From positions 1 through 34,427 of the forward strand of contig DYPD01000034.1 in the NCBI GenBank assembly GCA_020720115.1: a DNA stretch of 34,427 bases. Direction: 5' to 3'. Below the pieces are notes generated by a model that did not search any database, was not told the DNA's origin, and saw only the letters and a program-made list of their open reading frames with translations. Within the stretch, counting starts at the first letter, position 1; each line of letters opens with the position of its first letter. Shown in pieces: positions 354-34,117 of the stretch. Made by a program: the position numbers and the translations under genes. The DNA is from Thiomargarita sp. Lineage in GTDB: Bacteria > Pseudomonadota > Gammaproteobacteria > Beggiatoales > Beggiatoaceae.

Positions 354-446
354 TATAGTCGGATTACTGAATCTTTAAAATAAAAGATATATAAAATCAT
401 ATGCTTAATAATTATAAAAATATAATTATTGAGTAATCCTACTATA
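354..446. mobile_element. 93-bp MITE-like element, copy 1
   Basis: The element is AT-rich and bounded by 15-bp terminal inverted repeats (tatagtcggattact at the left; the complement of the right end is tatagtaggattact, one mismatch). Both ends are TA dinucleotides, as expected for IS630/Tc1-mariner type insertion into TA. It contains an internal perfect 10-bp palindrome (aataattata / tataattatt, loop aaaa) and no ORF. Copy 2 at 12605-12697 is inverted and identical at 92 of 93 positions, the difference being position 388. The length, ends and lack of coding capacity fit a non-autonomous element mobilised in trans. No transposase gene is visible in this window. Confidence 0.85.
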
Positions 447-2106: not shown

Positions 2107-3447
2107 ATGAGTAAAAAGCGGCTGTCACTTCTGACTATAACGGCAACAATATTAGTTGCCGCTTTATTATATATTTCATTTACAGAAGAGTCTGTGACGG
2201 AAGATTCTGATAAGATTAACAATGCATCTATAAATAAGCCATCTCCGAAGCAAACAAGTAGAGATGCCATTATTCTAAAGACACCCGATTTCTTTAACAT
2301 AAAGCCAGTAGATTCAATTGCACACAATACAACGGCTAATGTAGGACAGCCAGTTCGGTTAAATTTATTGCCAGGAGATACAGTGTCTATACTATCTAAT
2401 ATAGAAAATCTACTTTCGGCAGGAACACCATCAGAACAATTGGATCAGGCTCTTATCGAGTTATTAGAAAACCCTAATATATCGAGATTGGATAAAATAT
2501 ATCCATTATGGAATTTGATTATAAAAACCGGGCTGGATACAGAAAATGGTAACTACGTTCTGGAATATCTTAGCGCATTACAACCAATAGAACTCACTGA
2601 AGACATGATAAACGCATTTAATTCCGGTGTGTCTGATAAAACCAAAGGCTTGTTACTGGACATTTTACAAGCATCCGCTGGTATAGCGAATCCTGAACAA
2701 CAGACTGAAGAACAACTCAATTTTATTGGAATGCAATCTGAACGCATACAAAATTTTTTCCTGGATCAGATTTATACCTCAGATAACGATAAAATTTTCA
2801 AGAAAGCATTTATGATATATCCATCTATAGTGCCAACAGAACAGGCTATATCAGTTATTACGGATATAATTAAAAATAAAGATCATAAAAAACTCGACCT
2901 TTCAGAAAGTGAGATTGTTTCTTTATCCGCACAAGTTGCTTTATCTACATATGAAGCCCAATCAGCCCTGCTACCAGGGTTGCTTGAGTCATTTTCGCGT
3001 GGGAATAATTCATTAGAGTCTCAGGCTTCATTTAATGATAATCTATATTCTGCGCTAAATAGCACTGATACTTCTTTCCTTGCAGACAATATAAAACCAC
3101 AGGTTTCATCCTACATTAGAACACAGGAACCTCCATTATCTTCCGCGTCTCCGGTAGAATTTGAAAACTTGAGCAGCTATTATGCATGGGCAAAGGCTTA
3201 TGTTGCCACTTCAAATACCGATCCGGTAACACGAAATCAGGCATTGGCAGTGACAGCCATTGAATCTTCTGATCCAACAAAGGCTTCCGCAGTAATATTA
3301 TTATCGGAACCAGATGTAATACAATATATCAAACAATCAGGTTCATATGCAGAACTAAAGAAATCTATGGAGTCTGCTTTGACAAATACATCCATATCAG
3401 AAGATTCTAAGAGAATTGTAAGCGATGCGCTAGAACAGCTAAAATAG
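2107..3447 (+). CDS. Membrane-anchored hypothetical protein, AT-rich
   Basis: The 446-residue protein starts M-S-K-K-R and has one hydrophobic segment (about residues 7-24), indicating a signal anchor with the rest in the periplasm. The remainder is Ser/Asn/Leu-rich and predicted almost all helical, with repeated amphipathic helices suggestive of a HEAT/TPR-like solenoid; no catalytic motif was seen. Base composition is clearly more AT-rich than the flanking genes, with many ata, aat and tta codons, suggesting horizontal acquisition. Its stop at 3447 coincides almost exactly with the point where the STAND remnant on the other strand ends, so this gene sits at a rearrangement junction. I do not recognise the family. 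Confidence 0.7.
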   Translation: MSKKRLSLLTITATILVAALLYISFTEESVTEDSDKINNASINKPSPKQTSRDAIILKTPDFFNIKPVDSIAHNTTANVGQPVRLNLLPGDTVSILSNIENLLSAGTPSEQLDQALIELLENPNISRLDKIYPLWNLIIKTGLDTENGNYVLEYLSALQPIELTEDMINAFNSGVSDKTKGLLLDILQASAGIANPEQQTEEQLNFIGMQSERIQNFFLDQIYTSDNDKIFKKAFMIYPSIVPTEQAISVITDIIKNKDHKKLDLSESEIVSLSAQVALSTYEAQSALLPGLLESFSRGNNSLESQASFNDNLYSALNSTDTSFLADNIKPQVSSYIRTQEPPLSSASPVEFENLSSYYAWAKAYVATSNTDPVTRNQALAVTAIESSDPTKASAVILLSEPDVIQYIKQSGSYAELKKSMESALTNTSISEDSKRIVSDALEQLK

Positions 3448-26641: not shown

Positions 26642-27619
26642 ATGAACGTAAAAACAAAAATACAGGCAGCCCTGTTACTTTGCCTGACTAGCTACACACT
26701 GCAAGCCGCACCTAATGCGCCAGACAGCAAATACCTCTGCATCCTTAATCCCGAAACCTGCCAAGGCAACCAACAGCCCCCGCCGCCGCCAGGCAAAGGT
26801 TTTACCAACTTCATTGGAATAACCTTTGTTAGCATACCCGCTGGCAGTTTTTACATGGGTAGCCGCAAGCAACTGGAAAAAGACAAGGTACTGCCCGCCG
26901 AAGCTTGGCTCGGTATCGAAGAAGAAAAACTGCCGTCCAACATTCCACTCGATCCTAACGTAAGCGACGATGAATTACCTTTGCACCCGGTCACACTATC
27001 CGCCTTCCAAATGAGCGCCCATGAGATTACCGTCGGGCAATTCAAACAATTTTTGCGTGCTATCGGCACAGAAGCCGCCCTAAAGCAAGGCTTATTGTCA
27101 GAAGCATTTCGCGAATACAACATCTATGGCGATAACGCGCCCGTCACTGTCGTTTCTTGGCAAGATGCCCAAGCCTTCATTGCCTGGCTCAACCAAGCAA
27201 AACCCAGCAGCGACAAACATAGCTACCGCTTACCCACAGAAGCCGAATGGGAATATGCCGCCCGTGCAGGGAGTCAGAAAATTTATGGCTTTGCCGATAC
27301 TGACGGACAACTAGGCGAATACGCCTGGTTTACCGGCAATTCAGGCAGTCAACCCCACCCTGTCGGGCAGAAAAAACCTAATGCCTGGGGGCTGTATGAC
27401 ATCCAGGGCAATGTCTGGGAATGGACCTGCTCTAATTACACCAGCGCCTACGAAGGAAAAGAACAGCGGTGCTCAGAAAACACAAGCGAAAACAAAGTGT
27501 TGCGTGGTTGCGCGTGGCTCAGCAGTGCGGGTTACTGCCGTTTGGCTAACCGTGGCAGCGGCACCTCTTCTTACAGGAACGACAACTACGGGTTTCGCCT
27601 CGTCGCTGTTTCTTCCTAG
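26642..27619 (+). CDS. DGR target: exported FGE-sulfatase/SUMF1-fold variable protein
   Basis: The 325-residue protein has a signal peptide (cleavage near residue 22-23, L-Q-A-A), a Pro-rich linker (46-50) and a formylglycine-generating-enzyme-like domain from about 57 to 322: F-V-S-I-P-A-G-S-F-Y-M-G-S, E-I-T-V-G-Q-F, P-V-T-V-V-S-W-Q-D-A, Y-R-L-P-T-E-A-E-W-E-Y-A-A-R and G-N-V-W-E-W-T. Codons 286-325 form the DGR variable repeat. Residues 293-295, 298, 305-307, 311, 314 and 316 differ from the template. Where FGE enzymes have Y-R-C-A-A-R this protein has C-R-L-A-N-R, so the second active-site Cys is absent and ligand binding is more likely than catalysis. A ggag site precedes the ATG. Confidence 0.93.
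   Translation: MNVKTKIQAALLLCLTSYTLQAAPNAPDSKYLCILNPETCQGNQQPPPPPGKGFTNFIGITFVSIPAGSFYMGSRKQLEKDKVLPAEAWLGIEEEKLPSNIPLDPNVSDDELPLHPVTLSAFQMSAHEITVGQFKQFLRAIGTEAALKQGLLSEAFREYNIYGDNAPVTVVSWQDAQAFIAWLNQAKPSSDKHSYRLPTEAEWEYAARAGSQKIYGFADTDGQLGEYAWFTGNSGSQPHPVGQKKPNAWGLYDIQGNVWEWTCSNYTSAYEGKEQRCSENTSENKVLRGCAWLSSAGYCRLANRGSGTSSYRNDNYGFRLVAVSS
27498..27619 (+). repeat. DGR variable repeat (VR)
   Basis: These 122 bp align without gaps to the TR at 29184-29305. There are 13 mismatches and all lie at TR adenines (8 A-to-G, 4 A-to-T, 1 A-to-C). The base just before, 27497, is g against a in TR and may be a 14th. The VR ends exactly with the target's TAG. The last 28 bases before the final AG contain no adenine and are identical to TR, matching the expected initiation-of-homing zone. 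Confidence 0.97.
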
Positions 27620-27681
27620 AATTCTTTACGCTTTTTGCTTTTACTCTGTTACGCTTTACCCTTTGTCTTTTACCCTTCTAG

Positions 27682-27698
27682 TCCCCCCTTGCGGGGGA
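27682..27698. other. GC-rich hairpin downstream of VR
   Basis: A 6-bp stem (tccccc / ggggga) closes a 5-nt loop, 62 bp past the VR end in the VR-avd gap. Hairpins or cruciforms just after VR aid target recognition in some DGRs, usually closer to the VR. The preceding 62 bases are pyrimidine-rich on the plus strand. A role here is a suggestion. Confidence 0.5.
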
Positions 27699-27763
27699 TC
27701 GCGTTATTTTTGGGCTTTTTAGCAAGTTGCACTAATGCAATAAATAGCTTTTTAAGAGAAAAA

Positions 27764-28108
27764 ATGAAAGAAGAACTCTCAGTTATCCAAAAAACCTATG
27801 ATTTTATTAAATGGTATGTCCCTATACTCAATCGCGTACCGAGAGATCATAAATTCTTATTAAGCGATAGAATAATTGCAGAATTATATACCATGCTGGA
27901 AAATCTAATTAAAGCTAAGTATAGCAAAAACAAGCTAGATTTGCTATTACAAACCAATATTCAATTAGAAATTATTCGTTATCAAACGCGTTTAGTCTAT
28001 GATTTTAACTTAATCAACACTAATCGCTATGAATATATTAACAAACAATTGCTAGAAATTGGTATGGAACTGGGCGGCTGGCTTAAACAACAAAGGCAAA
28101 CCGCATGA
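27764..28108 (+). CDS. avd: DGR accessory variability determinant (Avd), four-helix bundle
   Basis: This 114-residue helical protein matches the Avd family in length and pattern: basic [12 protein letters not shown] near residue 30, M-L-E-N-L-I-K-A, and the C-terminal [12 protein letters not shown]. Avd forms a pentameric barrel that binds the reverse transcriptase and template RNA and is needed for mutagenic cDNA synthesis. The ATG at 27764 with an aagaga site gives the family length; an upstream in-frame start at 27635 would add a non-homologous leader. The stop overlaps the RT start (ATGA), giving translational coupling. Base use is more AT-rich than in the housekeeping genes. Confidence 0.92.
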
Positions 28109-29160
28109 AACGCTATGGGTATTTATGGCAACAGCTAATCAGTTTCGATAATTTATTAAAAGCAGCAAAGCAAGCACAAAAGAGCAAACGCTTTCAACCC
28201 GCAGTGCTAAAATTTAATAGCAATATAGAGCAAGAATTATTGCTAATGCAGCAACAATTACAACAAAAAACCTATCCATTTGGTGAATATACAACCTTTT
28301 ACATCATTGAACCTAAAAAACGTATGATTTCTGCCGCACCTTATCCTGACCGCGTAGTGCATCATGCACTATGCAATATTATACAACCCTTATTTGAACG
28401 TAGCTTTATTCAGCATTCGTATGCCAATCGTGTTGGATTCGGTACACACCGTGCCTTACGCCATTTTACTACACTGGCACGTCAGTATCGCTATGTTTTG
28501 CAATGCGATATTCAAAAATATTTCCCTACCATTGATCACGAAATTTTAAAAAAATTATTATGTCGTAAAATTAAATGCCCAGATACACTATGGTTAATTA
28601 ACACTATTATTGAACACAGTAATATACAACCTGCGCCTACATTATATTTTCCGGGTGATGATTTGTTAACGCCTATTCAAAGGCGCAAGGGTTTGCCTGT
28701 GGGTAATTTAACCAGTCAATTTTTTGCGAATGTGTATTTGAATGGATTTGATCACTTTATTCAAGAGCATTTAGCTCTGCCATACCTGCGCTATGTGGAT
28801 GATTTTGCGTTATTCAGTAATGATAAACAGCAATTACAACAAGCCCGTGTTAGATTAGAAAACTATCTGGTTCAATTACGCTTAAAAATTCATCCTATTA
28901 AAAGCCAGATTTTCAAAACACAGTATGGGGCGAGTTTTTTAGGATTTCGAGTTTTACCTGACCGTATTCGCGTTAGAAATGAGAATGTACGCCGTAGCAA
29001 ACGCCGCTTAAAACAAATGCAGACCGCTTATCAGCAAGGCGATATAACATTAGCCGCTATTCAACATGCCATTCGCAGTTGGATTGCGCATTTAGAGCAT
29101 GGTGATACATGGCGATTACGCGAGAAGTGTTTATCCCTGGTTGCGTTTGTGCCAAAATAA
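28105..29160 (+). CDS. DGR-type reverse transcriptase
   Basis: The 351-residue enzyme has the RT palm and finger motifs: [17 protein letters not shown] (73-89), [12 protein letters not shown] with D135, the DGR-characteristic [10 protein letters not shown] (196-205), active-site Y-V-D-D (230-233) and F-L-G-F (278-281). The S-Q ending of motif 4 is typical of DGR RTs and differs from the S-P common in group II intron and retron enzymes. It has no maturase or endonuclease domain. It copies TR RNA into cDNA with errors at adenines. It overlaps avd by 4 nt, and TR begins 23 nt after its stop. Confidence 0.97.
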
Positions 29161-29183
29161 TCAACGGGGTAGGCAGCGTTAGA

Positions 29184-29305
29184 TGTTGCGTGGTTGCGCG
29201 TGGAACAACAATGCGGGTAACTGCCGTTTGGCTAACCGTAACAACAACACCTCTTCTAACAGGAACAACAACAACGGGTTTCGCCTCGTCGCTGTTTCTT
29301 CCTAG
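29184..29305 (+). repeat. DGR template repeat (TR)
   Basis: The 122-bp TR lies directly after the RT gene on the same strand. Read in the VR frame it encodes 13 Asn (12 AAC, one AAT), an arrangement that makes adenine mutagenesis change exposed residues while keeping the scaffold codons, which are nearly adenine-free. The 28 bases 29276-29303 contain no adenine. Sequence similarity to VR stops after the TAG. It serves as the RNA template and is itself unmutated. Confidence 0.97.
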
Positions 29306-29578
29306 CACTCTTGCAAACCAGAACCAGGAAATGGGAATTTTTTGGGCGTGTGCGTAAAGAGTTCAGACCTACGCCAGTGATAGTTTTTATGATTATCCAA
29401 ATATCAATTTTATACCCAATGGCTGAGTAATTTTTTTGAAAAGCGATTGGGTATTTTTATCTGAGTAAAACCTTTTTAATTTTATAATTTTTTTGCATAA
29501 AAAGAGCAAATTAAGTTTATTAAGGTATTTGCTTTCCTATATCAACTTTCTTAATTAAATGCTGATTGATTTTCTCTT
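29306..29578. other. AT-rich intergenic region after TR
   Basis: These 273 bp hold the candidate terminator at 29412-29460 and, after it, an AT-rich stretch that probably carries the promoter of the STAND-WD40 gene. I cannot pick specific hexamers with confidence, and no Shine-Dalgarno sequence is evident before the ATG at 29579. Confidence 0.5.
29412..29460 (+). terminator. Putative terminator of the avd-RT-TR transcript
   Basis: A 9-bp stem (atacccaat / attgggtat) with a 25-nt loop is followed by a T-rich tract. It lies 106 bp after TR, giving a natural 3' end for the template RNA. The long loop lowers certainty. Confidence 0.5.
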
Positions 29579-32500
29579 ATGCCTACACTGAGTTTGTTTG
29601 TTTCTTCGCCGGGGGATGTGAATGAGGAGCGGGTGATTGCGGCGCGGGTGATTGAGCGCGTGGGGGAGGCGTTTGCTCATCGCGTGCGCCTGGAGCCGAT
29701 TTTCTGGGAGCATGAGCCGATGCTGATGACTGAAACTTTCCAGACGCAAATCCAGCCGCCGTCGGAAACGGATATTTTTGTTGGCATTTTGTGGGCGCGG
29801 ATCGGGACGCGCTTGCCGGCGCATATTACGCGCTCTGATGGTAGCCGTTATGCGTCTGGTACTGAGTTTGAGTTTGAGGATGCGTGGGCGGGTTTTGCGC
29901 GGCAGGGGCGCCCGGAGATTTTGGTTTATCGCAAAACCGCGAAGCCTTTGATAAGTCAGGATATGCCAGATTTTGCGGTGCGTCTGGCGCAAAAGGAGGC
30001 GCTGGATGGGTTTGTGCGCAAGTGGTTTCAAGATGACGATGGCTCTTTTATCGCGGCTTTTAATCCGTTTGAGAATTTGGCGGAGTTTGAGGAGCGCCTG
30101 GAGTCGCATTTGCGCAAGCTGTTGCTGCGGCGTTTTCCTTCGGATGATGCGGATACGCATGTGCGCTACATTACTTGGCGCGAGGGCTCACCGTTTCGCG
30201 GGCTGGCGCTGTTTGAGAGGTCGCAAGCGCCGGTGTTTTTTGGGCGCACGCGGGTGGTGAGTGAGGTGCTGGCGGCGTGGCGTAAAAATGCGCTGGAGGG
30301 GACGCCTTTTATCATGCTGTTAGGCATGAGTGGCAGCGGTAAGTCGTCGTTGGTGCGGGCGGGTGTGTTGCCCCTGTTGATGCAGCCGGGGGTGATTGAG
30401 GGTGTGGCGGCGTGGCGCTTGGCGTTGTTGCGTCCGGGCGATTGTAGCGCGGATTTGTTGGAGGATTTGAGTAAGCTGTTGTTTGCGCAGTTGGGTTTGT
30501 CGGCGGACGCTGATGGGCTGCGGCATAGCGGTAGTTTAAATACGTTACTGCAAGCTTTTTTAGCCGCGCAAGCCTGGCGTGATCAACCTGGGCGGTTGGG
30601 TGAATACGCGGCGTTGGAGCAGGCGATTGTGCAGTTTATTGGCGCTTGTTTGCAGCAAAGTGAGCAGGCGTTGGGCGTGCAGCAGGGGCAGGTGCGTTTG
30701 GTGTTGGTGTTGGATCAGTTGGAGGAGTTATTTACCCTGGAAACGATTGCTTTGCCGATGCGCAAAGCCTTTGTGGAATTGCTGGCGTTGCTGGTGCGTA
30801 GCCAGCACTGTTGGGTGATTGCGACTTTGCGTAGTGATCTTTATTACCGTTGCGCAGAGTTGCCGGTTTTGGCGAAGTTGTTGGAAGGTAATGGGCATTA
30901 TTTGTTGACGCCGCCGACGGTCAGTGAGTTGTTGCAAATGATTCGGCTGCCGGCGTTTGCTGCTGGGCTGCAATTTGAAACCGATGCCAATACGCAGATG
31001 CGCTTGGATGAGGTGATTTTGCAGTCTATGGTGGCAAATCCTGCCAGTTTGTCGCTGATGAGTTTTACGCTGGATGCTTTATATCAGCAGCGCGATGCCA
31101 ATGGTTATCTGACCTTTGCTGCTTATGAGCAATTGGGCGGTATTGAGGGCGCTTTGGCGCAACGCGCCGAGGCGGTTTTTCAGCAGGTCAGTGTGGCGGC
31201 GCAAGCGGCTTTGCCGGCTTTGATGCGCACGCTGGTGACAGTCAGTGCGAAGGATGCAACGCCGATCAGTGGACGGCGTTTTTTATATGGCGATAGAAAA
31301 ACTCCGCCGGCGGTGCAGGAGTTGTTGAATGCCTTTATTGGTGCGGATTTGTTGGTCACTGGGCAGGACACCGACGGGGTGGCAGTTGCCCGCATTGTGC
31401 ACGATGCGTTGCTGCAACATTGGCCGCGTTTGCAGCTTTGGTTGGATGAAAATCAGCATTGGTTGCGCATTCGGGTGCGGCTGAAGGATGCTGCGCAACA
31501 GTGGCTGGAAGAAGGGCATCCACCAGAGCTTTTGCTGCACGAAGGGCTGGCTTTACAGCAAGGTGAAGAACTGCTTGCCCAGTGGCAAGATGCGATTGAT
31601 CCTTATCTGTTTGATTATTTACAGGCTTCTGTGCAAGCCGCGGCACAGCAGCGCATGGCTAAACAGCGTCGGGCGCAACGTCAGTTGCGCCATAGCCGCC
31701 AATTAACGGGCGTATTCGCAGTGTTGGCGGTAGTGGCGGCGGCGGGTGGTTTTTATGGTTATCGCGGGCAAAAAATCGCCGAGCAGCAAGCGCAGGAAAC
31801 GGCAGAATTTGCCATGTTAGCGCAGCAAGAAAAATATCTGGCGTTGCGCACTCAATCGCAATTTTTGGTGTCCTTATCTAATCAGCAGACAGCGACAGGG
31901 GATGCGGGGAACGGGGTGTTGTTGGCGCTGGAAGCTTTGCCGACTGATTTCACTCAGGCGCAACGTCCGTATTTGGTGGAAGCCGAAATTGCGTTGCGCT
32001 ACGCACTGGAAAATCTGCATGAATACAAGGTATTGCGCGGACATACCGATGAGGTGTGGAAGGTTTGCTTTAGCCCCGATGGGCGTTATCTGCTCAGTGC
32101 CGCCGACGATGCCACCGCTCGCTTGTGGGACGCGAACAGCGGTCAGCCGTTGCGGGTGTTGCAAGGGCATCAGAGACAAATCTGGCATGTGGCATTCAGC
32201 CCAGATCAACAGCGGATTGTGACTGCTTCTTTAGATCGCCAAGCGCGAGTTTGGGATACGGCGACGGGGCAAACCTTGCTGGTACTGCAAGGGCATGAAA
32301 GTGAAGTTTATTTTGCCGCTTTCAGTGCTGATGGCAAGCGCATTGTCACTACTTCTTTGGACAAAACTCTGCGCCTGTGGGATGCACACAGCGGCGCTTT
32401 GCTGCATGTTTTGCGCGGGCATACAGCCGCAGTGCGCAACGCTGCCTTTAGCCCAGATGGGCGCTGGTTGGTCAGTGCTTCGCCAGATAGTACAGCGCGG

Positions 32501-34117
32501 CTGTGGGATGTCGAGCAGGGTAGTCTGCGATGGGTGTTGGCGGGGCATACAGCGGGGGTGAATCATGCGATGTTTCACCCAGACGGACAGCGGATTGTGA
32601 CGGATTCCGAGGATAAAACGGCGCGTTTGTGGGATGCGCGTAGCGGTGCTCTGTTGCAAGTCTTTGCCGATCACGCCGAGGGGCTAACGGGCGCTACCAT
32701 CAGCCCCGATGGGCGCTATTTGCTGACTTATTCCAAGGATCAGACCGCCCGTTTGTGGGATTTTCAAGGGCGGCGCTTGCAGGTGTTTTACGGTCACAGG
32801 CACGCCATCACGGATGCCGTGTTTACCGCTGATAGTCATCAAGTCCTGACCGCTGCTAAAGACGGCAGCCTGCGCTTGTGGCAAACCCAAGAGGGTGCAG
32901 AAATTGGCGTTATGGCAGGACATACGGAAGCTGTGTATGCCTTAGCCTTAAGCCCTGATGGTCACCACCTCGCCAGTGCCTCGGCGGATCAAACGGTGCG
33001 TTTGTGGCATTTGCACAGCGCGGAATCCGTTGCAGTGCTAGGCGGGCATGAAAGCGCAGTAAAACAGGTACAGTTTGTAGCGAACGGGCAACGTTTTTTA
33101 ACCCTCTCCGATCAGCAGGCGCAAGTGTGGGACACGCGCACCCAGCGCCTATTGCACAGCGTGACACTGGAAGAAGAAAGGCTGTTAAGTGCCGAACTCA
33201 GCCCTGATGGTGCTCAGTTGCTTGCCAGCGAGAGCGATGGACACCTGTATCTGTGGGCGGTAGACAGCGGCGCATTATTGGCAGCGCCCGTAGTAGGCGG
33301 CGGTTCAGCGCGCCTGTTGCGCTTTAATCATAAAGGCGATCAATGGCTTAGCATTGGGCAAAAGGGCAACGCCTGGCTTTGGCAAGCGCCCCAAGCGACT
33401 GCTCGCGCTTTATCAGAACAGCAGGATTTTTTACCCGTAGCAGCGGCTTTTAGCCCAGACGACAGCCGCTTTGTCACCTTATCGCGCACTGCCACCGCTA
33501 AACTCTGGCGCACTCATGACGTACAGTTGCTGGCGACCTTAAGCGGACATGAAGAGGCTTTAACCTATACCGGTTTTTCGCCCGCCGGAAACCTTGTGTT
33601 GACAGGCGCAGCGGATGGCGAGGTGCGCTTGTGGGACGCACACAGCGGCGCCTTGCACACCCAATTACACGGGCATAGGGGAAAAATCTTTCACGCAGCT
33701 TTTAGCCCCGACGGGCGATTGCTTGCCACTGCTTCGCGGGATAATAGCGTATGTCTATGGAATCTCATCCAGGGTAAACAGGCACTTGTGCTGCAAGGGC
33801 ACCGAGGGGGCGTGCTGTTTGTTGCCTTCAGTCCCGATGGTATGCGCTTGCTCAGCGCCTCCCGCGATGGCTCGGCGCGGCTTTGGGATTTGCCCAGCGG
33901 ACACCCACTTGGCATCATCAACCCGCAAGCCTATAGCCTTGGCGTACCCGCCTACAGTGCTGATGGCGCTTATCTATTAACGGCTGGCAATGACAATACT
34001 GCAACCTTATGGAATGCCTTACCCAACACTCAGGCAGTGATGGAGTACGCACGAAACCTTGTGCCGCGCCAACTGACGCAGAAACAACGCCGTCAATTTT
34101 TCTTGGAAACCGATTAA
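29579..34117 (+). CDS. DUF4062 - nSTAND NTPase - WD40 repeat protein
   Basis: A 1512-residue protein. Residues 1-120 are a DUF4062 domain (L-F-V-S-S-P-G-D-V-N-E-E-R; D-I-F-V-G-I-L-W-A-R-I-G-T-R). The nSTAND module begins near 204 (S-P-F-R-G-L-A-L-F, V-F-F-G-R), with Walker A G-M-S-G-S-G-K-S at 249-256 and Walker B L-V-L-V-L-D-Q-L-E-E with D379. A hydrophobic segment follows at about 709-727. About 16 WD40 units fill 817 to 1490, most with L-x-G-H, S-P-D-G and A-R-L-W-D motifs, enough for two propellers. STAND proteins are ligand-triggered switches; DUF4062 is TIR-like and may be the effector. No good ribosome-binding site is evident. The frame is intact, unlike the STAND remnant at 3439-4174. 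Confidence 0.92.
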   Translation: MPTLSLFVSSPGDVNEERVIAARVIERVGEAFAHRVRLEPIFWEHEPMLMTETFQTQIQPPSETDIFVGILWARIGTRLPAHITRSDGSRYASGTEFEFEDAWAGFARQGRPEILVYRKTAKPLISQDMPDFAVRLAQKEALDGFVRKWFQDDDGSFIAAFNPFENLAEFEERLESHLRKLLLRRFPSDDADTHVRYITWREGSPFRGLALFERSQAPVFFGRTRVVSEVLAAWRKNALEGTPFIMLLGMSGSGKSSLVRAGVLPLLMQPGVIEGVAAWRLALLRPGDCSADLLEDLSKLLFAQLGLSADADGLRHSGSLNTLLQAFLAAQAWRDQPGRLGEYAALEQAIVQFIGACLQQSEQALGVQQGQVRLVLVLDQLEELFTLETIALPMRKAFVELLALLVRSQHCWVIATLRSDLYYRCAELPVLAKLLEGNGHYLLTPPTVSELLQMIRLPAFAAGLQFETDANTQMRLDEVILQSMVANPASLSLMSFTLDALYQQRDANGYLTFAAYEQLGGIEGALAQRAEAVFQQVSVAAQAALPALMRTLVTVSAKDATPISGRRFLYGDRKTPPAVQELLNAFIGADLLVTGQDTDGVAVARIVHDALLQHWPRLQLWLDENQHWLRIRVRLKDAAQQWLEEGHPPELLLHEGLALQQGEELLAQWQDAIDPYLFDYLQASVQAAAQQRMAKQRRAQRQLRHSRQLTGVFAVLAVVAAAGGFYGYRGQKIAEQQAQETAEFAMLAQQEKYLALRTQSQFLVSLSNQQTATGDAGNGVLLALEALPTDFTQAQRPYLVEAEIALRYALENLHEYKVLRGHTDEVWKVCFSPDGRYLLSAADDATARLWDANSGQPLRVLQGHQRQIWHVAFSPDQQRIVTASLDRQARVWDTATGQTLLVLQGHESEVYFAAFSADGKRIVTTSLDKTLRLWDAHSGALLHVLRGHTAAVRNAAFSPDGRWLVSASPDSTARLWDVEQGSLRWVLAGHTAGVNHAMFHPDGQRIVTDSEDKTARLWDARSGALLQVFADHAEGLTGATISPDGRYLLTYSKDQTARLWDFQGRRLQVFYGHRHAITDAVFTADSHQVLTAAKDGSLRLWQTQEGAEIGVMAGHTEAVYALALSPDGHHLASASADQTVRLWHLHSAESVAVLGGHESAVKQVQFVANGQRFLTLSDQQAQVWDTRTQRLLHSVTLEEERLLSAELSPDGAQLLASESDGHLYLWAVDSGALLAAPVVGGGSARLLRFNHKGDQWLSIGQKGNAWLWQAPQATARALSEQQDFLPVAAAFSPDDSRFVTLSRTATAKLWRTHDVQLLATLSGHEEALTYTGFSPAGNLVLTGAADGEVRLWDAHSGALHTQLHGHRGKIFHAAFSPDGRLLATASRDNSVCLWNLIQGKQALVLQGHRGGVLFVAFSPDGMRLLSASRDGSARLWDLPSGHPLGIINPQAYSLGVPAYSADGAYLLTAGNDNTATLWNALPNTQAVMEYARNLVPRQLTQKQRRQFFLETD

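Follow-up and report, generated by a model that had tools for sequence, protein, structure and literature searches.

What is known of the biochemistry of diversity-generating retroelements (DGRs) comes, to our knowledge, mostly from a single phage element. Here, we analyze a chromosomal DGR, an element of a kind already known, in a window of 34,427 nt that represents contig DYPD01000034.1 of a draft genome of Thiomargarita sp. (assembly GCA_020720115.1; 3.86 Mb in 185 contigs). The locus shows the DGR-type reverse transcriptase (RT), a template repeat (TR) and variable repeat (VR) pair with adenine-confined differences, Avd, a 3' VR in a C-lectin-type gene, a difference between the initiation of mutagenic homing (IMH) sequence and its counterpart IMH*, and a hairpin behind the VR. 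All these parts are present; VR1 and VR2 have changed at adenines only and VR3 almost only there, the TR is tied to an RNA that shows covariation, and the targets share a bounded 3' cassette. The DGR is ordinary in kind, and the RNA behind the TR and the 3' cassette are its interesting part. We consider it highly probable that this chromosomal DGR is complete and of the cyanobacterial type, and that its single RT, Avd, and TR-RNA act on a cis target and on two trans targets.

The DGR of phage BPP-1 shares with the Thiomargarita element RT, Avd, TR, VR, IMH/IMH*, a hairpin behind the VR, and a structured RNA behind the TR (PMC3240598, PMC12875486); unlike the window element, it is phage-borne, its TR precedes the RT, and its RNA belongs to the Rfam family Phage_DGR, which is not matched by our RNA model R1 described below (locus L195; loci, genomes, and contigs are denoted L, G, and C, respectively). 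In BPP-1, RT-Avd is recruited by the spacer, which also primes cDNA synthesis from an internal adenine (PMC12875486). Cyanobacterial DGRs (clade 5E; PMC10907252, PMC7517822), among which the window RT nests, have the same order, VR-avd-RT-TR, with the TR just behind the RT, C-lectin-type VRs, and the same RNA behind the TR; the window element differs from these in its sulfur bacterial host, in the remote location of two of its three targets, and in its neighbor gene, which encodes an nSTAND1-WD40 protein. For a filamentous cyanobacterium, high expression of the TR-RNA has been reported, and the flanking regions are predicted to belong to the complex (PMC12691664). The DGRs of Thiohalocapsa PB-PSB1 similarly have FGE and STAND genes nearby, but comprise several loci, compared to a single RT match in the Thiomargarita genome, and their diversification was measured in natural samples, whereas the Thiomargarita element is known from sequence alone (PMC10907252). 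Treponema denticola TvpA (2y3c) also has a C-terminal variable domain of the C-lectin fold and belongs to another element in another host.

The DGR block and its three targets

The block consists of the following features.
26642-29305, plus strand: DGR block in one stretch of ~2.7 kb, comprising the target gene with its VR, avd, RT, and TR
26642-27619, plus strand: cis target gene, 325 aa, with an FGE-sulfatase (C-type-lectin-type) domain (PF03781, E = 1.1e-49)
27498-27619, plus strand: VR1, the 3' end of the target gene through the stop codon
27590-27626, plus strand: IMH, the unaltered 3' end of the VR plus 7 bases beyond the stop, with two fixed differences from the TR
27764-28108, plus strand: avd, 114 aa, with its stop overlapping the RT start (NF033474, 132.1 bits, cut-off 80; bAvd, 73.1 bits)
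28105-29160, plus strand: DGR RT, 351 aa (RVT_1, E = 2.1e-25; 8ub7, E = 1e-46; tree)
29184-29305, plus strand: TR, with 13 AAY codons, one ACC, and one AGG in the VR frame
29276-29312, plus strand: IMH*, the 3' end of the TR, extending into the first strand of RNA helix 1 (alignment A3, see below)

A preliminary description of this DNA had placed the target with its C-terminal VR, avd, RT, and TR on one strand with all parts intact, and the analysis bore this out: the three open reading frames (ORFs) have clear family matches, and avd, RT, and TR are intact. Realignment confirmed that VR1 and TR match without gaps over 122 bp with 13 mismatches, every one at a TR adenine, and our count agrees with the 29 adenines given for the TR. 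The edges of the repeat are refined here: the first base at the 5' side is probably a chance match, because VR2 and VR3 differ from the TR there, and the repeat extends 7 bases beyond the stop codon. In this extension, C in the TR corresponds to A at 27620 and to T at 27622 in all three VRs, two non-adenine differences past the stop that represent the IMH/IMH* difference expected of a DGR. The DGR identity proposed earlier is supported, and to it we add what had been overlooked, namely, two remote targets, the IMH/IMH* marker, the 3' hairpin cassette, and the structured RNA.

The 13 AAY codons, together with ACC and AGG, allow ~2.3e16 variant proteins without a stop. The closest solved relative of the cis target, by sequence match, is the T. 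denticola variable protein 1 (TvpA, E = 6.6e-25), and its N-terminus, judged by eye, resembles a signal peptide. Given this domain and the apparent signal peptide, the targets look like exported binding proteins.

Two further VRs were identified in the genome, both on the minus strand, VR2 (C147:3021-3148) and VR3 (C142:15986-16113), so that three VRs are present versus one RT match and one R1 match. Both remote target genes also carry the FGE domain, which makes FGE-sulfatase common to all three targets. With the first base and the IMH bases excluded, 6 of 6 changes in VR2 and 15 of 16 in VR3 fall on TR adenines, the remaining one being G to A; pooled over the three VRs, 34 of the 35 changes are at adenines (21 A to G, 11 A to T, and 2 A to C). 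Because of this pattern, the earlier characterization of the element as active or recently active fits: recent activity is likely, and the element may still be active. The chance of such confinement (hypergeometric for 13 of 13 in VR1) is 7e-10 for VR1, 1e-4 for VR2, and 2e-10 for VR3. Ordinary duplication or gene conversion, with later point mutation and selection but no reverse transcription, could account for the 3' cassette of the targets, which is absent from the TR and must have spread as DNA, but changes confined to the adenines of one copy need a template-specific process, and the DGR RT and Avd adjoin the template; we give this origin of the VRs next to no credence.

The RT contains the motifs LPVGNLTSQ, which we take to be the mark of DGR RTs, and YVDD; in the alignment of nine relatives (A1), YVDD and the P-GNLTSQ positions are invariant, and the first L and the V vary. 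In the phylogenetic tree, the window RT is nested among RTs whose loci have TR/VR pairs and groups with those from Thiomargarita, Thioploca, and three further genomes of the same family (weak support, 86/79) within a clade of 44 mostly cyanobacterial sequences (100/98) that also includes Marinimicrobia, Acidobacteriota, and one Bacteroidota. Transfer of the RT from cyanobacteria would be the simple reading of this topology. A second RT lineage from the same family (G007, G012, G016, and G024) is set apart in the tree (100/100), and the best RTs of G007, G016, and G024 are 45-48% identical to the window RT. The second-lineage loci (L045-L048, from G012, G016, G024, and G007, respectively) have a conserved sequence of their own behind the TR, which R1 does not match, and some of their VRs bear the same hairpin-TCGCG-T-run tail. 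In G001, the sole genome of the same genus that was compared, RT matches were weak only (best E = 1.5e-14) and the RNA behind the TR was not found. A phage or plasmid origin of the element was considered and rejected: megablast yielded no match in plasmids, RT matches in 120 phage records were all below 60% identity, and the window encodes pyruvate dehydrogenase E1 (aceE).

A structured RNA that accompanies the template

Directly behind the TR, two features were identified.
29304-29460, plus strand: structured RNA R1, 157 nt, fused 3' to the TR (R1 model, 108.7 bits; RT-14, 39.4 bits; covariation)
29412-29454, plus strand: last hairpin of this RNA, followed by a T run (fold and sequence), likely the end of the transcript

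An alignment of the RNA from 50 loci (A3) contains 38 base pairs, 32 of which show two-sided changes, with 95.4% of the cells paired compared to 78.5% in shuffled and 29-43% in slid versions. A3 took 50 of 63 RNAs (left out were L093, L106, L110, L133, L150-L152, L158, L159, and L045-L048); six loci, L086, L156, L162, L163, L010, and L053, were without an anchor. When 19 unused sequences, cut at the R1 coordinates, were folded afresh, the same helices were recovered, with two-sided changes in 36 of 41 pairs. Two unpaired stretches, GTCCAGACC and CCAAAAATCAAA, are conserved as well.

The R1 model produced 81 matches in 1.04 Mb of loci, corresponding to 79 distinct places (the pairs L043/L108 and L042/L084 are duplicates), and 28 of the matched loci are outside the model. 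R1 was detected at 73 of the 80 related RT loci. Counting the window and two L161 matches, 66 RNAs are downstream of the RT on the RT strand, 6 are upstream, and 3 are on the opposite strand. TR/VR pairs were obtained from 65 of the 80 loci; of these, pairs with a score of at least 60, a length below 170, and a distance above 200 entered the counts (rows of L160 and L145 and one reverse row of L085 were dropped, and one retained L151 row is probably VR versus VR). Where the TR was known, the TR end and the R1 start are at most 2 nt apart for 43 of 63 matches and at most 15 nt apart for 56, distances that for A3 members are partly by construction because that alignment was anchored behind the TR end; for loci outside the model, the start is within 15 nt in 11 of 13. 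The RNA accompanies the TR, not the RT. In Thioploca (L108, 2716-2983), TR and RNA, as read by eye, are on the strand opposite to the RT, behind what appears to be a VR end. Among 12 whole genomes, R1 matched in 6, with 6 of the 7 matches at window-type RTs and the remaining one, weak and partial (24.9 bits), elsewhere in G017; it was not found in the whole genomes G007, G016, and G024.

The RNA could serve the stability, processing, or termination of the TR transcript without a role in priming or RT recruitment, considering that its last hairpin in the window leads into a T run and that priming is ascribed to it by analogy with the BPP-1 spacer, as described in the literature (PMC12875486). 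However, an RNA that follows the TR even where it is upstream of the RT or on the opposite strand, and that has conserved unpaired stretches exceeding a terminator, is not what such an element would predict, and we regard this alternative as quite unlikely.

The window RNA is a divergent relative of the Rfam family RT-14 (RF02921). At the gathering cut-off, no Rfam family matched in the window and RT-14 matched in none of 12 relatives; below it, RT-14 aligned to the window RNA over model positions 1-144 with 39.4 bits (cut-off 48.1) and the same helix plan, with some pairs marked as non-standard. Another difference lies in the family label, which in the match output does not mention DGRs. Across 11 other R1 loci, RT-14 passed the cut-off in one (L101, 49.4 bits), scored 46.5-47.5 in three, and was not matched up to E = 10 in seven; six further loci included two, L152 and L156, with subthreshold RT-14 matches at the place of R1. 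In a search of 57 genomes, no RT-14 match was above the cut-off, the source genome was missed under stricter filters, and weak matches occurred also in 6 of 14 controls. A match in G007 (29 bits, E = 0.07), not significant alone, begins directly behind its TR. For Phage_DGR (RF03022), a search of 29100-29560 was negative up to E = 1.

In phage BalMu-1, RT-14 proper (70.4 bits) begins at 2834, at the TR end (2836), and in phage BIP-1, Phage_DGR (104.7 bits) begins 20 nt past the scripted TR end. Given these placements, phage DGRs are already known to have a structured RNA behind the TR; our addition is the occurrence of RT-14-type RNAs in this place across a broad group of cellular DGRs, where they probably are the scaffolds for cDNA priming. 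Among phage DGR loci, R1 matches only BalMu-1, in the same place as RT-14 (E = 0.0017). Of eight phage DGR loci searched for Rfam RNAs, three had none. In the crAss-like phage DGRs L193, L194, and L198, subthreshold matches to RT-17, another RT-numbered RNA, are located between TR and RT, and RT-17 may be a DGR spacer. Among the papers listed by a literature search, none connects the name RT-14 with DGRs, although the primary 2025 BPP-1 study may hold a comparative treatment.

The 3' cassette of the targets

Behind VR1, the target ends in a sequence shared with the remote targets.
27620-27712, plus strand: 93-nt 3' target cassette (IMH end, pyrimidine-rich spacer, hairpin, TCGCGTTATTTTT)
27680-27699, plus strand: GC hairpin AGTCCCCCCTTGCGGGGGAT behind VR1

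The cassette is 88-98% identical among the three VRs and 42-44% identical to the TR. It is bounded: identity is 57-73% in the 150 nt upstream of the VR and 40-42% beyond the cassette. Because the TR does not contain the cassette sequence, the cassette was not spread by retrohoming; it moved, or was kept, as DNA. The hairpin 20-mer has exactly three copies in the genome, one behind each VR, plus one copy with two mismatches on C170. There (C170:94-126; L040, L079), the cassette hairpin, spacer, and TCGCGTTATTTTTT occur without a VR, 112 nt from the contig start, apparently as a remnant or cut-off target. Similarly bounded identity was found in other genomes, where both members of 8 out of 19 single-locus target pairs have the scripted hairpin (the other 11 were not judgeable; L087, L102, L106, and L151 were left out of the comparison): median identity in these 8 pairs is 73% upstream, 82% in the core, 89% through the hairpin and T run, and 51% beyond. 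L121 is an exception, with 60% in the cassette and 99% upstream.

A hairpin behind the VR is a known DGR feature. Phage-related DGRs, BPP-1 included, have hairpins with GC stems of 7-10 bp and GRNA loops, located 4-34 bp behind the VR and needed for efficient homing, and Guo and colleagues predicted such hairpins for most chromosomal and plasmid DGRs (PMC3240598). The window hairpin differs in its distance of 61 nt from the stop, its CTTGC loop, and its shared tail, and by analogy may have a homing role. Of 93 VR flanks from the source genome and relatives, 55 contain a GC hairpin with a T run behind it; these flanks are related, so that the counts are not independent. The same test was negative for all 77 TR flanks and all 93 shuffled flanks, and among 528 other ORFs in these loci it was positive for 13.

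These counts bear on the possibility that the hairpin is a transcription terminator only and not a part of homing. A simple terminator scan flags it (27681-27699), it is located between the target and avd, and 55 of 59 VR-flank hairpins are followed by a T run; conversely, the rarity of hairpin and T run behind other ORFs, the GNA or GNNA loop present on one strand in 37 of the 55 VR hairpins versus 3 of 13 at other ORFs, the T run that here begins ~9 nt past the stem, and the homing requirement for the corresponding BPP-1 hairpin (PMC3240598) argue against this role alone. We consider a pure terminator doubtful; terminator and homing element may also hold together.

A generic TCGCGNNATTTTTT repeat was considered and rejected, with 39 sites in 12 genomes versus 27 for the reversed-pattern control. 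Among the 30 sites inspected (9 were without a locus), a strong hairpin adjoins 10, of which 9 follow a VR or VR-like repeat at a distance of 79-139 nt and the tenth is the C170 piece. Two of these nine (G024) matched only the TR of another genome; A positions account for 11 of 18 differences in one and for 9 of 15 in the other. At a site in G001 (L078), a hairpin with G-T pairs lies 4 nt away.

Mechanism, genomic context, and implications

In the mechanism that we propose, TR and the 157-nt RNA would be transcribed as a single RNA, the fold of which would recruit RT and Avd and set priming at the TR end. cDNA synthesis with errors opposite adenines would follow, and the cDNA would enter any target ending in the IMH-hairpin cassette, with one RT, one Avd, and one TR-RNA acting on one cis and two trans targets.

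Several observations run counter to this scheme. R1 was not found at 7 of the 80 RT loci (L088, L104, L119, L147, L155, L160, and L163). Folded by itself, the window RNA reaches a z-score of only -2.2; in the 5' domain, the minimum-energy structure does not follow the consensus, with which the centroid is in better agreement. The hairpin-plus-T pattern is absent from 38 of the 93 VR flanks, and the lone hairpin as DNA is no more stable than shuffled sequences (z = -0.87 and -1.16). VR3 holds its one non-adenine change, and its gene is truncated at the 5' side by the contig end; the VR2 gene is broken upstream of the VR, with a change of frame and a ~92-bp palindromic insert. With these two genes damaged or incomplete, the action of RT and TR on the remote targets in trans is a prediction from the sequence pattern.

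The insert is a copy of a palindromic element resembling miniature inverted-repeat transposable elements, with at least 40 genome copies at 98-100% identity, including window positions 354-445 and C147:3607-3706. Interruption of the VR2 gene by an element with so many near-identical copies indicates ongoing decay, as would be expected if the DGR were a recent fossil that diversified its targets formerly and is now silent. Against silence stand the intact avd, RT, and TR, the paired structure retained by the TR-RNA, and the changes still found on adenines in all but one case, and we consider it unlikely. The reading that we prefer is the complete DGR serving three targets.

Directly behind the DGR (29579-34117), the window encodes a 1512-aa nSTAND1 and WD40-repeat protein with PADLOC matches to HEAT-ARM_XIII (E = 1.3e-33) and PDC-S60 (E = 4.4e-10); a DUF4062 assignment for its first 205 aa was rejected for lack of a Pfam match. 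Comparable nSTAND1-WD40-type neighbors of DGRs have been discussed (PMC10907252). In L100, a HEARO RNA (154 bits, 2901-3117) was observed ~3 kb from a Fischerella DGR RT.

We lean toward a broader picture, in which RT-14 and R1 form one superfamily, the cDNA-priming and RT-Avd-recruiting scaffold of this whole DGR group in cyanobacteria, sulfur bacteria, and others. TR and RNA would then be a self-contained, movable template unit that can occupy any place or strand relative to the RT, and the ~90-nt cassette of IMH, spacer, hairpin, and T run would be a second movable unit that marks targets, with new targets gained genome-wide by receiving it. As a search model, R1 points to templates at 14 of the 80 loci where the TR/VR script kept no pair. 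The findings suggest a function for the Rfam family RT-14. With its strong covariation, the RNA provides a structural entry point to priming across a large set of cellular DGRs, and the bounded 3' cassette yields a rule, open to testing, by which a single RT could come to act on multiple genes.

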